Positions 28,261 to 36,786 of a stretch of 36,786 bases of DNA are shown here, piece after piece. The notes below the pieces were generated by a model. It saw nothing but the letters and a program-made list of their open reading frames with translations. It had not been told where the DNA came from and did not search any database. Within the stretch, counting starts at the first letter, position 1, and each line of letters opens with the position of its first letter. Made by a program: the position numbers and the translations under genes. Source of the stretch: an uncultured Gammaproteobacteria bacterium (GTDB lineage: Bacteria > Pseudomonadota > Gammaproteobacteria > Pseudomonadales > Pseudohongiellaceae); contig CAIOZF010000164.1 of assembly GCA_903862645.1 (NCBI GenBank), forward strand, positions 1 to 36,786. Direction: 5' to 3'.

Positions 28261-28923
28261 CTACTCCGCAAACAGTAGGCCGTACCCCATCTCCTGCGCC
28301 CGTGTCGCCGCGATAACCCCGGCCGGCACGAGGCGTGCGTTCGGAATTAAGCCGGCTGCCAGCTCTGCATACACCGCGTCAGCTGTTGAACCGGTGACTG
28401 TTGCGATAGCACCCGCCATACGCCGAGTGGCCCGACTGCAGACTGCAAACTGTACGCCCTTTTCAACCAGCTCCGGTAAGGAGTGCTGTCCGTTGTTGGC
28501 AGCCGGCACCTTCATCGGGTTGGTGACAGGCACCGGATCTGCGTTGCGCATGAAGCTGGAGCCATACTTGGCCCAAATGGCGTCGTCATATCCATAAGGC
28601 GTGGAGAGATGTCGGAAGCAAACCACCAAGGCATAGTCGGAAGGCTGACCTTCGTACTCGCTCACATGGGCGTCAATCATATTGCCCGCATTCCAGACTG
28701 CAGTGGCACCGCCTACGATGGAGGACGAATCCACAAACGCTCGATGATTACCCGGCAACTCACCCAGCCACGCATCTTTCGGATGACGCGCGGGTTGAAA
28801 GCCACCACCCCCGGTCTGGGCGGCTGCCGGTCCGGCTCCAGCCGCAATGCCTGCCACAGCTACAACACTCATGCCTGTCAGAAGGGCACGACGGCCCAGT
28901 GTTTTCTCATCACTTTCTTGCAT
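28261..28923 (-). CDS. Tat-exported DsrE-like protein
   Basis: This 220-residue protein has a twin-arginine signal: Arg11-Arg12 in LGRRALLTGMSV, followed by an Ala/Gly hydrophobic core ending AAAQ. The mature domain matches the exported DsrE/DsrF-like type: FVDSSSIVGGATAVWNAGNM, YALVVCFRHLSTPYGYDDAI, HSLPELVEKGVQFAVCSRAT. Cys in VVCFRH and VCSRAT are in strand ends where DsrE-like proteins keep a conserved Cys. The function of the exported group is unknown; a sulfur-relay or redox role is only suggestive. The start at 28923 is preferred over a longer frame because GGAGAGGGGAA lies just upstream and the Tat motif then sits at the right distance. Confidence 0.85.
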   Translation of the reverse strand: MQESDEKTLGRRALLTGMSVVAVAGIAAGAGPAAAQTGGGGFQPARHPKDAWLGELPGNHRAFVDSSSIVGGATAVWNAGNMIDAHVSEYEGQPSDYALVVCFRHLSTPYGYDDAIWAKYGSSFMRNADPVPVTNPMKVPAANNGQHSLPELVEKGVQFAVCSRATRRMAGAIATVTGSTADAVYAELAAGLIPNARLVPAGVIAATRAQEMGYGLLFAE

Positions 28924-29143
28924 TTCCCCTCTCCTGCCACTTTGGCTAAACGAGCGCGCGAAAGCTGGAGTATCTCCGTTGCAGCGTAGCACTGCAATAA
29001 TTCAAGACTGATTTCGCCTACCCCTCCCGAGAGTAAGAAATCATGCGTCTATTGTCGTGTTCGTCAGACGGGCATTGAGTGACTTCCTGCCCCGGCTCCT
29101 TTATTCTCAACCCACCAATTTGAACTGTACTCAGGAGTACAAG

Positions 29144-32233: not shown

Positions 32234-32749
32234 TTAGTTTCCCGAGCCGCTGTACTGTCCTATAAATGGAATCAGCCGGCCGCACAGCAGCACAATCGTC
32301 CAAATCGCCAGCGATGCATAGGCCACCGCTTTCGCCACCGGCGGGGAATCGGAATCGGCATTCCAGTTCTCCATCACTGGATGCACCTTCCAGTAATAGA
32401 ACAAGGCGTTTAGCCCCGCGAGCACGATCAGTACCATCTTTAACTGGAACACTGCGTTGCTGGCATAGGTCACCGGATCACCATAGAAGAACAGTATCCC
32501 GGTAATGAGGTTGAGTACGAACCCAAGCAACACCATGGGAATGAGTTTGTGAGTCGCGGCAGGATTCAAAATCCGGAAATGACCAGCCAGACGCAGGTCG
32601 ATCAGGAGCAAGCCACCGATCAGCAGGGAAAGACCGAAGAAGTGGAATATCTCCAGAATCGGCCAAAGCCAGTAGGCGGAAACAATCCATTGATTGAGCG
32701 CGCTATCGGCTACATAAGGGACTATGGATTCCAACAAGAATGATTGCAA
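32234..32749 (-). CDS. Multi-helix membrane protein, DUF6644-like
   Basis: This 171-residue integral membrane protein has about five helices. It shows WPILEIFHFFGLSLLIGGLL, then DLRLAG, a loop, VLNLITGILFFYGDP, FQLKMVLIVLAGLNALFYY and a final helix ending LCGRLIPFIG. A conserved His in the first helix (EIFHFFG) and DLRLxG match the neighbouring gene at 32765-33229, so the two are paralogues. Other genes of this kind often lie near DUF6152 genes; their function is unknown. The His could be a heme or metal ligand. The start is TTG at 32749 with GGGAG 8 bases upstream. It follows its paralogue by 15 bases, so the two are cotranscribed. Confidence 0.75.
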   Translation of the reverse strand: MQSFLLESIVPYVADSALNQWIVSAYWLWPILEIFHFFGLSLLIGGLLLIDLRLAGHFRILNPAATHKLIPMVLLGFVLNLITGILFFYGDPVTYASNAVFQLKMVLIVLAGLNALFYYWKVHPVMENWNADSDSPPVAKAVAYASLAIWTIVLLCGRLIPFIGQYSGSGN

Positions 32750-32764
32750 CGTAAGAGCTCCCTG

Positions 32765-33229
32765 TCAGACGTAGGCGACTAAACGGCCGGCAATAATGGC
32801 ACCGATCCAGGTCAGTAGTGAAATCAGCGCCACCACCTTGGTGGATTTGCTAATGACGGCCCCTGCCCCGACGGCAATCTCGGCACGCATGCGTGACTGA
32901 ATAACGCCCGCCAACACCATTCCCAGAATGATCATCGATATCTTCAGCAGGAATGCCAGGTTCTCGGCAAAAATCGTCGCCTGAGACGTGAACAGCAGCA
33001 CGCCGGAAATCGCGTTGATGATGAAGCCGACCCACGCGAATTTACTCAGCGATAGAAACGCCGCCGGGTGCAGCCCCTGATACATGCCGAGCAGGCGCAG
33101 GTCGCGAATCAGAAATATCCCCACGACGATGCCCAAGCCGATGATATGCACACTGAGCAGCGCGGGATAAGCCCACAGTGACAGACTCACCCACAGCGCC
33201 ACCGGCGTCGCTTCAATCCATGCAAACAT
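32765..33229 (-). CDS. Multi-helix membrane protein, DUF6644-like paralogue
   Basis: This 154-residue protein has about four to five helices: WAYPALLSVHIIGLGIVVG with one His, then IRDLRLLGMYQGLHPAA. These are followed by WVGFIINAISGVLLFTSQA, FLLKISMIILGMVLAGVIQ and a last helix ending IAGRLVAYV. The order HxxGL, DLRLLG, INxxSGxxLF and FxLKxxxI is shared with the gene that follows. The ATG at 33229 has GGAG 6 bases before it and is preferred to the TTG four codons upstream, which lies within that binding site. The pair may form a hetero-oligomer, perhaps a heme-bearing membrane module, which is inference. Confidence 0.75.
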   Translation of the reverse strand: MFAWIEATPVALWVSLSLWAYPALLSVHIIGLGIVVGIFLIRDLRLLGMYQGLHPAAFLSLSKFAWVGFIINAISGVLLFTSQATIFAENLAFLLKISMIILGMVLAGVIQSRMRAEIAVGAGAVISKSTKVVALISLLTWIGAIIAGRLVAYV

Positions 33230-33347
33230 TACACTCTCCAAAGCGCCGGAGCCGCGAACAGCGTGCCATTGCTCATATTTCTCATGCGTGACCTGATTGT
33301 GGCGGGAGCATGAACGTTCACAATGCCTTCGGCAATAGCAGCAAGCG

Positions 33348-34301
33348 CTATTTGCTCAGGTTTTCATAATAGGCGCGAATCGGGCCGAACGGACCGAAAC
33401 GATGCTGCTCGACGGAGAATTCATCGGCATAGGGGGGATAGGGGCTGTCCACTGGCTTGGTGGTGCGATCCGGGTAGTCCTTCTCAAGATTGGCCATCTG
33501 CGGTCGCTCCTGCGCGTTGATATACCCTGCCACATCGAAGGCCTGATCGTCGGTGAGGTCAGGCTGGCCCAATGGCATACGCGCCTTGATGAACAGGGAC
33601 GCCGTCAGCACCCTGCCCATTCCTGCGCCGTTGTTGAAACTGTCCGGTCCCCACAGCGGCGGGAACAGATAGCCTTCATTGAGATCGAGCGTGGCTTGCA
33701 GCCCCTGCCCTTCGACGCCGTGGCAGACCTGACAACGCTGTTCGTAGACAACCTGCCCGGCGGCAATGTCGGCGGCACGAGCGGGCTCTTTGAAGGCGGC
33801 CGGTTCGACCGCCGCGCGGCGGCTCTCGCTCATCGCGGCATACTGTGTGCCGAGGCTCTGAATGTAGAGTTCCATGGAGATCATCTCCACGCTGTCGCGG
33901 GCCAGTTCACGTCCGTTCATGCTGCGGGTCATGCAGCCGTTGATGCGATCGCGCAGATCCCCTTCGAAGCCATCGCGCCCGGAGAAACGCGGATAGCGGG
34001 AGGCCGACTGCATCAGCGACAGCGTGCCGGGTTTGGTACCGGTGTCGAGGTGGCACGATGCACAATCCAGATGCGAACCAGTGTAGCGCTGCTCTGGATT
34101 CTCATGATTAGGCCCCATCAATGCCGCCGTGTCGCGCAACAGTCTGCGACCATAGTCCGCGGTCGCTTCCAGCGGCACCGCACCGACGTCATCGGAGGAA
34201 GGGCGCGTCAGCAACAGCGATGTGACAATGATGCCGACCCCGACTACCGCGCTGGTCAGGATGGTGATCAGCAGGCCGCCGCGTTGATTAAAGAGACTCA
34301 T
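33348..34301 (-). CDS. tsdA: Diheme cytochrome c, thiosulfate dehydrogenase (TsdA)-like
   Basis: This is a 317-residue cytochrome anchored by an N-terminal helix (about 10-31). The first c domain has CASCH (80-84) followed by DRINGCMTRSMNGREL with Cys123, matching the TsdA motif that supplies the unusual Cys ligand to heme 1. The second has CQVCH (190-194), then YLFPPLWGPDSFNNGAGM and FIKARMPLG with Lys239 and Met242, the TsdA heme 2 ligand region. TsdA joins two thiosulfates into tetrathionate, giving electrons to cytochrome c or an oxidase. GGAGGAAG lies just before the ATG, which overlaps the upstream gene by 14 bases. Being in the oxidase operon supports direct electron feed. The substrate is inferred, not shown. 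Confidence 0.82.
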   Translation of the reverse strand: MSLFNQRGGLLITILTSAVVGVGIIVTSLLLTRPSSDDVGAVPLEATADYGRRLLRDTAALMGPNHENPEQRYTGSHLDCASCHLDTGTKPGTLSLMQSASRYPRFSGRDGFEGDLRDRINGCMTRSMNGRELARDSVEMISMELYIQSLGTQYAAMSESRRAAVEPAAFKEPARAADIAAGQVVYEQRCQVCHGVEGQGLQATLDLNEGYLFPPLWGPDSFNNGAGMGRVLTASLFIKARMPLGQPDLTDDQAFDVAGYINAQERPQMANLEKDYPDRTTKPVDSPYPPYADEFSVEQHRFGPFGPIRAYYENLSK

Positions 34302-34518
34302 TGGTTCTTCCTCCATCCGCTGTCGGCGGCTGCGTGGATTGATTCTGACGTTGCTGCTCGTGGTGATCCATGCGCTGCGCATCGTACCGCTGCAGTTGCT
34401 CCTGAAAACTGTGCTTCGGCTGTTCGATCTGTCGTCGCCACGCGGGCACCAACAGATAGGCCAGCAGCATGGCGCCGGCGAAGAGCAGTGACAGCCCGAC
34501 TATCAACGTTGTAATCAT
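34288..34518 (-). CDS. Small one-helix protein in oxidase operon, CcoQ-like by position
   Basis: This 76-residue protein has one N-terminal membrane helix (about 4-25, LIVGLSLLFAGAMLLAYLLV). It then has a basic stop-transfer and a polar Gln/His/Arg tail (about 34-76). Its ATG overlaps the stop of the fused oxidase gene (ATGA), and its stop overlaps the start of the TsdA-like gene. Position and shape are those of CcoQ or another small cbb3 accessory subunit, but the sequence has no diagnostic motif, so no symbol is given. It probably helps assemble or stabilise the fused oxidase. Confidence 0.7.
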   Translation of the reverse strand: MITTLIVGLSLLFAGAMLLAYLLVPAWRRQIEQPKHSFQEQLQRYDAQRMDHHEQQRQNQSTQPPTADGGRTNESL

Positions 34519-36786
34519 TGCGTACCTCCTGCCACAGCCGTCCCGAAGAACTGTCGGATGTAGTGCGAGACAACGGTGATCTCATCATCGCTCAGCCGGT
34601 CCGTCCATGGCGCCATCGACGTTCCCGGCACACCGGTACGCAGCACACGGACACTCTCGGCAAAATCCAGACGCTCGCGGCGGAAATCACTGGGTGCCAC
34701 CGGCAACTGGCTGGCGGCAAAGCCATCGCCGGCCCCGGTGTCGCCGTGACACTCCGCACAGTTGGTCTGGTAGACCGCCTCCCCCAGTGCCAGCACCTCG
34801 CTGGTCGCGCTGACCGACAAGTCCGCTGTAGTGCCGCCTCCGAATCCACGCACAACCGCCACCAGCGCCGCGAGATCTGTAGTCGACTGATCGCGCCACG
34901 CCGGCATGGCAGTGCCATGCACACCATTCCAGAGAATATCTGCGACCAGTTCCGGTGTGTATTCGTGCAGGGTCAGGTTGGTCGGTTCCGGATCCAGCCA
35001 CTGCGCCGCCACTCCATCACCCTTTCCTGCCAGACCGTGACAGCCGCTGCAGTTATTCGCCCACAGTTGCTGCCCCCTCTCCGCGCTCGTGGGCGACGGC
35101 AGCACGGGTGCGTCGCCCCGTGGCCGCGTGCGGCCCGGGTGAGCATTGAGCAAAGGAGCCTCGAAAGCCATCTGCGCCCACATGTCATCGGGATCGGCCG
35201 CCGCCTGCGCCGCTGCATCGCCCTCTGGCCAAGCCAGCTCGCGGGCACGTCCCAGGGTCTCGATGTAGGCAAGCAGGTCACGCGCCTCCTGTTTCGGCCG
35301 GTCGGCCGCGCCGTCGAAGAGTTCAGGATACGCGGGCATGATCGAGGTCGGCACGACTGCGCGTGGCGAGTACAGGTGCAGGAGGTGCCAGTCTTCCTTG
35401 TGCGTGCCCCCAGCCCTTGCCAGATCCGGCCCAATGCGGCGTGTTCCGAGCAGATGCGGGTAGTCGAAGCGACCCTCCCATGCCAGTGTCGGCGCACCGA
35501 AGCGCGCCATGTCGGCAGCGGTGTAACGCACCTGCTGCGTGTGGCAGTAGCCGCAACCTTCGCGTGCATACACGCTGCGGCCACGCTGTTCTGACGCAGT
35601 CAGCGGCAGCGGATTCTGCGGCGCCATCGCTGCCGTCTGCAGCTCCAGCACCTGCCTCGGCAGAACTCCCAGCAACGACACCGACATGGCGAAGAAGGCA
35701 ACTCCAGCCACGGAGGCAACCACGTAGGACATTCCCAGCGCGCGCCCCGGCGCTGCTCCTGAGCCGGTCTCGACCACCTCAGGCGCAACCTGTCTGGCGC
35801 CCTGACGACGGGCGCCCTCGATAGCCAACGCGCCGGCGCCTCGCAGGCCAGTGGTCAGCCCCACCAACAGCAGTACAAAGCCAGTGGTAATCGGAATGGC
35901 GGAGAGTGTACGCACGAGCCAGTAAGGCTCGGAGGCGCGAACCGACTCCAGCCAAGGGGCACCACTCATCCACAGCTCCCCCTGCACAAGCCCGGCGAGT
36001 GTGAGGTCGAGCACCATGATGCTGATGCCCAGAGTCAGAAGCCAATAGGCCCATTCCAGCGCCCGTGCGTTGTAGCGGGCGCCAGGCATGCGCTGCCAGG
36101 CGTGAATGATCCCGCCGATGCAGGCAAAGGTCGCAAAGCCCAGCATCGCCAGATGGGAATGGCCGATTACCCAGTCGGTGAAGTGAGTCAATTGGTTCAG
36201 ACTCATGTTGGCCTGCAGCGAGCCCTGCACACTGACAATCAGGTAGAACACCACCGACATCGACACGAAGCGCAGCCCCACATCACGAGGAATCCAGCCG
36301 CAACCGCGCTGCGACAACATCAGATTGGAGACGACGATAATTACAATCACGCCGAGCAGGAAGGACGCGGTGATGGCGGCCATCTGCGCCTCCATCGGAA
36401 TCACCGAGAAGATGTAGTGATGCGTGCCATTGAGCGGATAGAGGAAGAACAGCCCCCAGAAACCCAGCATGGAGAGAAAGTGACTGTAGACCGGTCGCCC
36501 ACTGGTGGCCGGTATCACATAATACAAAATGGCCAGAGCCAGTGGCGTGACGAACAAGCCGATAGCATCGTGAATCCACAGACCGCTGAAGGCGGCACCC
36601 GCCGCCCCTGGCACCAGTTCCGGGACGATATTTCCCATCGGGTAGGAGAGCAGTGTAAACACCAGCGCACCGATGATGTACCAGCTCGACACATATAAAT
36701 TGGCGATGCCACGACGAAAGAAGCCCGGCAGGAACTGCACGGAGGCCAACACAAATGCCAAGATCACGAAGGCATCGACAATCAGC
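34515..36786 (-). CDS. Fused cbb3-type oxidase, CcoN-CcoO-CcoP-like (partial at window edge)
   Basis: At least 756 codons are open to the window edge; about 140 N-terminal residues of CcoN lie outside. Numbering here starts at the GTG at 36767. CcoN part: CuB ligand His66 (WIHDAIG), Tyr110 at the cross-link position six before His116-His117 (NGTHHY), and heme ligands His203 and His205 (IGHSHLAM). Residues 311-345 are a linker, and 346-369 a membrane helix. The CcoO-type domain has CGYCH (405-409) with HTQQVR and Met477 (IMPAYP). Two CcoP-like domains follow: CSGCH (573-577) with Met621, and CAECH (670-674) with Met718. So one chain carries the catalytic core and three c hemes. It reduces O2 to water at low oxygen. 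Separate ccoO and ccoP genes are not present downstream. Confidence 0.9.
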   Translation of the reverse strand, partial: LIVDAFVILAFVLASVQFLPGFFRRGIANLYVSSWYIIGALVFTLLSYPMGNIVPELVPGAAGAAFSGLWIHDAIGLFVTPLALAILYYVIPATSGRPVYSHFLSMLGFWGLFFLYPLNGTHHYIFSVIPMEAQMAAITASFLLGVIVIIVVSNLMLSQRGCGWIPRDVGLRFVSMSVVFYLIVSVQGSLQANMSLNQLTHFTDWVIGHSHLAMLGFATFACIGGIIHAWQRMPGARYNARALEWAYWLLTLGISIMVLDLTLAGLVQGELWMSGAPWLESVRASEPYWLVRTLSAIPITTGFVLLLVGLTTGLRGAGALAIEGARRQGARQVAPEVVETGSGAAPGRALGMSYVVASVAGVAFFAMSVSLLGVLPRQVLELQTAAMAPQNPLPLTASEQRGRSVYAREGCGYCHTQQVRYTAADMARFGAPTLAWEGRFDYPHLLGTRRIGPDLARAGGTHKEDWHLLHLYSPRAVVPTSIMPAYPELFDGAADRPKQEARDLLAYIETLGRARELAWPEGDAAAQAAADPDDMWAQMAFEAPLLNAHPGRTRPRGDAPVLPSPTSAERGQQLWANNCSGCHGLAGKGDGVAAQWLDPEPTNLTLHEYTPELVADILWNGVHGTAMPAWRDQSTTDLAALVAVVRGFGGGTTADLSVSATSEVLALGEAVYQTNCAECHGDTGAGDGFAASQLPVAPSDFRRERLDFAESVRVLRTGVPGTSMAPWTDRLSDDEITVVSHYIRQFFGTAVAGGTQ

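Follow-up and report, generated by a model that had tools for sequence, protein, structure and literature searches.

How does a cytochrome cbb3-like oxidase that carries its catalytic subunit and all of its c-type hemes on a single polypeptide receive its electrons, and what does it do with them? The question is raised by a gene at the right end of a 36,786-nucleotide stretch of DNA (hereafter the window) from contig CAIOZF010000164.1 of GenBank assembly GCA_903862645.1, which derives from an uncultured gammaproteobacterium of the Pseudohongiellaceae. The gene is a ccoN-ccoO-cytochrome c-cytochrome c fusion on the minus strand, followed by genes for a small one-helix membrane protein and for a TsdA-type thiosulfate dehydrogenase, and we consider it probable that it encodes a self-contained, one-chain cbb3-like O2 reductase that is fed by the membrane-bound TsdA. 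The sequence-only reading had noticed the fusion, and the divergent surroundings of the active site, the small membrane protein and the TsdA partner, none of which it mentioned, are more informative than the fusion itself.

The 3' part of the oxidase gene occupies 34515..36786 (minus strand) as a stop-free frame of 756 codons that is open to the contig edge, by which the gene is cut. Its 5' part, which begins with a GTG start preceded by an AAGGAG-like site and runs for 149 codons to the end of its contig, was found elsewhere in this genome (G000; 95% complete in 254 contigs) on contig C69 (G000:C69:21338-21784), and a 19-nucleotide overlap that is unique within the G000 contigs joins the end of C69 to the start of the window's minus strand, so that extending the contig to the gene start, as had been proposed, yields a full protein of 899 residues. 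In the numbering of this protein, the residues His66, Tyr110, His116/117 and His203/205 of the 750-residue open reading frame (ORF) become His215, Tyr259, His265/266 and His352/354, and Met477/621/718 become Met626/770/867. The COX1 model matched G000 at three places, namely a full copy on C31, the window gene, and the first COX1 quarter at the end of C69, and a FixO profile search of this genome matched the window oxidase and no second FixO or CcoO. Separate CcoO and CcoP genes upstream, which had been named as a finding that would speak against a true fusion, did not turn up either: no CcoO- or CcoP-like frame was found in the last 12 kb of C69 before the oxidase gene, where the start of ccoN was the only match to a module part (CcoN, CcoO-CcoP or TsdA) among 39 frames of at least 100 residues. 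Two other frames there carry one CxxCH each and match no module part, and immediately upstream of the oxidase C69 encodes an AhpC/TSA protein and a 69-residue frame on the opposite strand.

The domain order was confirmed with Pfam, which gives COX1 (5e-46), FixO (2e-35), Cytochrome_CBB3 (6e-27) and Cytochrom_C (2e-21) in succession within the window frame. The CcoN-like catalytic domain (residues 144-467 of 899; 35814..36785, minus, as are all features below unless stated) provides the CuB ligands His215/265/266, the active-site Tyr259 and the heme ligands His352/354, while the first heme-b ligand, His75, is encoded on the other contig and is invariant in 10 of 10 aligned rows. It is followed by a membrane helix at about residues 493-520 (35655..35738), by a CcoO/FixO mono-heme domain with CGYCH at 554-558 and axial Met626 (35250..35609), and by two cytochrome c domains, the first with CSGCH at 722-726 and axial Met770 (34857..35084) and the second with CAECH at 819-823 and axial Met867 (34551..34790). 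Altogether the protein supplies the residues that bind two b hemes, CuB and three c hemes, and the three CxxCH motifs and the three axial Met residues, which the sequence-only reading had listed as kept, occur without exception in 54 of 54 rows. The helix between the CcoN and CcoO parts, described earlier as new, is indeed present, though it is not a novelty: it is CcoO's own anchor, since the alignment to solved cbb3 CcoO begins at CcoO residue 16. For the same reason the N-terminal part of CcoO is not missing, as had been suggested; the FixO profile covered 23-153 of 219 in the window oxidase, and it is instead the C-terminal end of CcoO, together with the CcoP membrane helix, that is absent from the fusion.

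With a contig edge inside the gene, and with the frame broken in one relative, G031, the fusion might be taken for an artefact of assembly or of frame calling that joins adjacent genes, a reading to which we give next to no weight in view of its distribution. In a set of 57 genomes, made up of G000 and 56 relatives, the oxidase occurs in 14, in nine of which it is whole in one stop-free frame (62-76% identity), the copies in G000, G009, G011 and G034 being cut by contig edges. A scan of named genome records, some of them from genomes that are also in the 57-genome set, returned 102 stretches and 84 relatives, of which 80 loci were kept. At 40 of these the search for the same domain order met a single frame of at least 840 residues with three CxxCH motifs, one of them, L052, in a 6.6-Mb single-sequence record. 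Sequencing error and a chance frame were rejected on the strength of these loci and the nine whole orthologues, and the missed stop or frameshift that was to be looked for did not materialise. A further 29 loci, every one with an acidobacterial title, have CcoN and a second protein comprising a helix, FixO and two cytochrome c domains, encoded by genes that touch or nearly touch, while 10 more are cut by contig ends. In the remaining locus, L081, from the same genome as G031 (G031:C3), the oxidase frame is broken and TsdA is intact, which may point to gene decay or to faulty assembly. Five fused loci have titles outside the Gammaproteobacteria (L034 and L048, Rhodospirillaceae; L061, Acidimicrobiia; L062, Vicinamibacterales; L072, Acidobacteriota), for which binning errors are possible. 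The fusion is rare in its class: when 369 gammaproteobacterial genomes were drawn evenly, two matched at E 1e-90, G000 and one Nitrospina-type fusion.

Contrary to the view that a fusion including the CcoP-type hemes is rarely described, fusion alone is not new, because a three-subunit fusion of 954 residues from Nitrospina gracilis has been in print since 2013 (PMC3578206) and is mentioned again in PMC10839748 (these and all papers cited below are represented by excerpts). Compared by its published residues, the Nitrospina protein resembles the window oxidase in that a single gene encodes all three subunits, in its one plus two c hemes, and in having Gly in place of Trp203, though its CuB helix has His202, Tyr205 and Tyr208 where the window family has Ser202 (68 of 75 rows), Trp205 and Asp208 (75 of 75 each), so that of the set His202/Gly203/Tyr205/Tyr208 only Gly203 is common to both. 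The complete set was found in plasmid-encoded proteins of Phyllobacterium and Sinorhizobium meliloti, and in a fused 976-residue frame of a gammaproteobacterium of the sister branch (G297); judged from these sequences, fusions of all three subunits occur in two sister branches. The Bacteroidetes-type CcoNO fusion (PRK14485; Melioribacter roseus) is similar to the window oxidase in joining CcoN to CcoO, but it leaves CcoP separate and retains the mandatory Glu (PMC5492636). Canonical CcoNOP oxidases (3mk7, 5djq, 8smr, 6xkw) share the fold, the heme and CuB ligands, the active-site Tyr and the complement of one CcoO and two CcoP-type hemes, yet are encoded by three genes and have Trp203 and Glu323 in 20 of 20 rows. 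No description of a fused oxidase of the window branch was found in the excerpted literature searched, and what is new is the oxidase subfamily with its altered active-site surroundings, the acidobacterial two-gene form, and the tight operon with TsdA and the small membrane protein. Three genes, two genes and one gene form a step series for the fusion of a respiratory complex.

The altered surroundings were read from a CcoN alignment with Pseudomonas stutzeri CcoN as the ruler, containing 75 window-type and 20 canonical rows. The ligands His207, His257, His345 and His347 and the active-site Tyr251 are kept in 75 of 75 window-type rows, and His258 (His266 of the window protein) in 74, the remaining row having one unknown letter at this position, so that the ligand list of the sequence-only reading holds throughout the family. 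Glu323, which we take to be the mandatory Glu of cbb3 oxidases, is Gln in 74 of 75 window-type rows and Glu in all 20 canonical ones; Trp203 is Gly in 75 of 75 and Trp in 20 of 20; and His243 is Gly in 75 of 75, while in canonical rows it is His in 14 of 20 and replaced in six. It is because the mandatory Glu was checked and is absent that we use the label cbb3-like rather than authentic cbb3. The nearest folds of an AlphaFold2 model of a whole fusion (the L101 protein) were cbb3 CcoN (3mk7, template-modelling score TMt 0.85) and then the nitric oxide reductase (NOR) subunit NorB (TMt 0.81), although with a mean predicted local distance difference test score (pLDDT) of 71.6 this model is only fair and most of its CcoO part lies below 50. 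These two features, the substitutions at Trp203 and Glu323 and the proximity of NorB, could be taken to mean that the enzyme is mainly a NOR or NO-detoxifying enzyme of the cbb3-NOR fold and not an O2 reductase. NorB lacks the active-site Tyr, however, and NOR has a non-heme iron site with a Glu, whereas here Tyr259 is invariant (75 of 75), each of the three CuB His is present in 74 or 75 of 75 rows, and a TsdA accompanies the oxidase, which makes an NO-reducing role very improbable.

The distance from the canonical enzymes is also seen in profile scores, the 899-residue protein missing the NCBIfam equivalog cut-offs for ccoN (166 against 583 bits), ccoO (110 against 201) and ccoP (58 against 180), and falling short even of the nearest model to the full protein, the CcoNO fusion PRK14485 (280 bits against 1080). 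Its CcoN part is about 26-31% identical to canonical cbb3. When the C-terminal part was modelled alone (pLDDT 85.2), its first match was a Kuenenia cytochrome protein (6h5l_B) and its second was CcoO (3mk7_B), at a modest TMt of 0.57, with solved CcoP (3mk7_C) reached at E 0.14 only. In a CcoN tree a branch with support 100 splits the 20 canonical CcoN from the rhizobial pair and the window-type rows, though the tree is of a quick type, and because the branches between canonical and window-type rows are very long, the finer branching and the order of fusion and splitting are unsure; L081, L098, L099, L103, L105 and L106 (short), L130 (partial) and L110 (a near copy of L109) were dropped from it. 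The window oxidase is probably a divergent, cbb3-like (C-family-related) branch of the heme-copper oxygen reductases, and not an authentic cbb3 oxidase. A Glu has been termed mandatory for cbb3 (PMC5492636). The window family is a naturally occurring case in which one can ask whether O2 reduction and pumping require the Glu and Trp that cbb3 conserves.

The likely source of electrons for the O2 reductase is suggested by its neighbor. The TsdA-type diheme protein (33348..34301) has a predicted N-terminal membrane helix, and its reading frame opens before the small ORF has ended. Its best solved relatives are the TsdA thiosulfate dehydrogenases (4v2k, 4wq7; E 5e-37), and it shares with these and with TsdBA (5lo9) both CxxCH motifs and the equivalents of Cys123, Arg109, Arg119 and Ser127, thiosulfate-binding or -converting residues as defined in Allochromatium vinosum TsdA (PMC4423706), while differing from them in its helix anchor and in being encoded with an oxidase. 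In the aligned rows Arg109 is conserved in 68 of 72, Arg119 and Cys123 in 71 each and Ser127 in all 72. At the position of the heme-2 Lys most rows (60 of 72) carry Arg, and each of the 71 TsdA proteins tested has a hydrophobic stretch at its N-terminus. In 68 of 80 loci TsdA is encoded downstream of the oxidase and on its strand, the other 12 being those in which the contig ends inside the oxidase or at most 83 bases past its stop, and the gap from the oxidase to the first aligned TsdA residue has a median of 167 nucleotides and a maximum of 978 (L095).

The same association is found between genomes and in rearranged loci, and it bears on the alternative of an ordinary cytochrome c oxidase that draws on the cytochrome bc1 complex via soluble cytochrome c, with TsdA merely co-regulated and delivering to the same pool without contact. 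Such an arrangement would suit the three c hemes, which are as in cbb3, and gene neighborhood is no proof of contact; canonical-type ccoN and ccoO also occur in at least nine of the 14 fusion genomes. However, of the 23 among 57 genomes with a TsdA-like match at E 1e-15, 14 have a close one (59-78% identity, and the window's own) and nine a distant one, and the 14 with a close TsdA are exactly the 14 with the oxidase, 43 having neither. The linkage extends over two phyla, and distances between oxidase sequences correlate with those between TsdA sequences (r 0.735 over 70 loci, shuffled maximum 0.194), which is partly expected from shared descent. On plasmids of Komagataeibacter, Acetobacter and Paraburkholderia the gene order is a two-domain cytochrome c, TsdA, CcoN and CcoOP, with a DsrE gene nearby, so that the link survives rearrangement, since TsdA is kept and is there upstream. 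Taken with this evidence, a bc1-fed oxidase without contact to TsdA is in our view unlikely, if still the foremost of the competing accounts. The plasmid loci (L109-L111 and L114) represent a two-gene form; the stretches from Komagataeibacter pGX3 and Acetobacter share 99.98% identity (L110 being a near copy of L109), and the annotation of pGX4 (L114) divides the second oxidase gene into two pieces.

Between the oxidase and TsdA the window encodes an unannotated 76-residue single-helix membrane protein (34288..34518), whose ATG overlaps the oxidase stop (ATGA) and whose own end lies inside the start of tsdA. A small frame of 50-86 residues with one hydrophobic helix occupies this place in 65 of the 68 loci with room for it, and the motif [VIML]E.P[KN]..[FL] is present in 65 of 65 of these proteins, which are conserved across two phyla; in L095 the small protein is located about 1 kb on, and L109, L110 and L111 carry it, while two rhizobial loci do not. 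Variation by codon position (0.20, 0.17 and 0.43 over 124 close pairs) is of the kind seen in coding sequence. No curated family matched it above cut-off, and against CcoQ/FixQ (PF05545) the window protein gave no match and the L109 copy 16.7 bits (cut-off 29). It is likely an oxidase subunit in the place of CcoQ, which its position recalls and its sequence does not.

In the scheme we favor for the TsdA-fed oxidase, the membrane-anchored TsdA would oxidize two thiosulfate to tetrathionate and would pass the electrons to the C-terminal diheme part of the fusion, which would replace CcoP or the TsdB acceptor, from where they would move to the CcoO heme, to heme b, and to b3/CuB as the predicted site of O2 reduction. 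Given Gln in place of Glu323 and Gly in place of His243, proton uptake would probably be unlike that of authentic cbb3. We infer the path, direction and substrate of electron flow, proton pumping and the effect of the lost Glu from the genes and their conserved residues. TsdB is the acceptor of TsdA in some bacteria (PMC5146829), and in Halomonas, where TsdA likewise contains a membrane segment, TsdB has been proposed to feed a cbb3 oxidase (PMC9237845). A tighter version, in which TsdA, the small helix protein and the oxidase assemble into one membrane complex, a thiosulfate:O2 oxidoreductase that circumvents quinone, bc1 and soluble cytochrome c and operates without Glu323 and without CcoG/CcoH assembly, is a tentative extension to which we would not yet commit. 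Both genes have been reported in sulfur oxidizers (PMC10086054), with no TsdA-oxidase gene pair described in the excerpt of that paper, nor was a description of such a pair found in the rest of the literature searched, including the excerpts of PMC9237845, PMC6018796 and PMC5146829. Excerpts of PMC8115632, PMC10579370, PMC11412304 and PMC10734462 contributed no information about the module. The arrangement suggests a compact electron route from sulfur compounds to oxygen; if the scheme is correct, it would be a minimal and portable sulfur-to-oxygen electron chain of uncultured bacteria of two phyla and of plasmids in cultured hosts, where the Acetobacter, Komagataeibacter and Paraburkholderia copies allow direct testing.

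Several considerations weigh against this scheme. The evidence consists of sequences and predicted models, and the changes of Trp203 to Gly and of Glu323 to Gln may put both O2 chemistry and pumping in doubt. The window TsdA matched no NCBIfam model at E 1e-10, and TsdA enzymes can also act as tetrathionate reductases (PMC5146829). Nine of the 43 oxidase-free genomes hold a distant TsdA-like protein; in L095 TsdA sits about 1 kb from the oxidase; and the small protein is missing in L061 and L062. The 68 linked loci are not independent, because they are mostly contigs of metagenome-assembled genomes (MAGs) and many are close kin, and the correlation of distances may come from shared descent alone. 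Finally, no TsdA was found in the 5-kb flanks of two rhizobial loci, and since the flanks of the sister branch formed by the rhizobia and G297 are without it, this type of oxidase does not need TsdA.

The fate of the proton path and of the assembly factors bears on a further account, compatible with a TsdA-fed O2 reductase and differing in purpose and energetics, in which the enzyme is protective and non-pumping, scavenging O2 or reactive sulfur species at the expense of thiosulfate as a sacrificial donor. The loss of the Glu323 and His243 equivalents would fit such a role, as would the absence of both CcoG (above cut-off) and FixH from seven of the 14 fusion genomes (G000, G015, G021, G026, G030, G031 and G034), from which it also follows that the oxidase does not depend on this assembly set; the remaining seven have both factors. 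This absence is suggestive only, and not specific, because three of the seven genomes without CcoG and FixH still hold canonical-type ccoN and ccoO, and His243 is replaced in canonical rows as well (six of 20, as given above). Furthermore, all 75 window-type rows conserve the equivalents of Ser240, Tyr317 and Asn289, which may leave a route for protons, and we regard the scavenger role as rather unlikely.

Some loci extend the comparison in other directions. A record titled Candidatus Sulfopaludibacter sp. SbA3 (L082) carries the module with TsdA; tsdA was reported absent from seven peat Acidobacteria MAGs (PMC6018796), and L082 is a different, isolate record. The gammaproteobacterial Nitrospina-type fused oxidase at L133:7013-9940 (plus strand) is a 976-residue frame with three CxxCH motifs, with no TsdA match in the 6-7 kb examined on each side.

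Among the other neighbors, a twin-arginine translocation (TAT)-signal protein is encoded at 28261..28992, with homologues lying close to the module in 51 of 80 loci, and its match to the thiosulfate dehydrogenase model NF052225 is weak (20.8 bits, cut-off 300); it may be an accessory part or a second sulfur enzyme. Its assignment as DsrE-like was rejected, as it had no Pfam support and no alignment with the acidobacterial DsrE, and the total of 57 of 80 loci with TAT or DsrE neighbors therefore mixes unrelated families (51 by the TAT query, seven by the acidobacterial DsrE and two by the L109 protein, overlapping). The DsrE-like neighbors may be parts of the module. The pair of DUF6644-related proteins, cytochrome b561, ORF 30969, DUF6152 and the C69 redoxin were rejected as module parts, having been found in none of the 80 loci at E 1e-5. 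The pair itself, at 32234-33241 of the window, consists of two tandem small membrane proteins beside the cytochrome b561, related to DUF6644 below cut-off. A family without a convincing Pfam match, represented by L052:5124-5780 (minus strand), is encoded close to the module in 38 of 80 loci.

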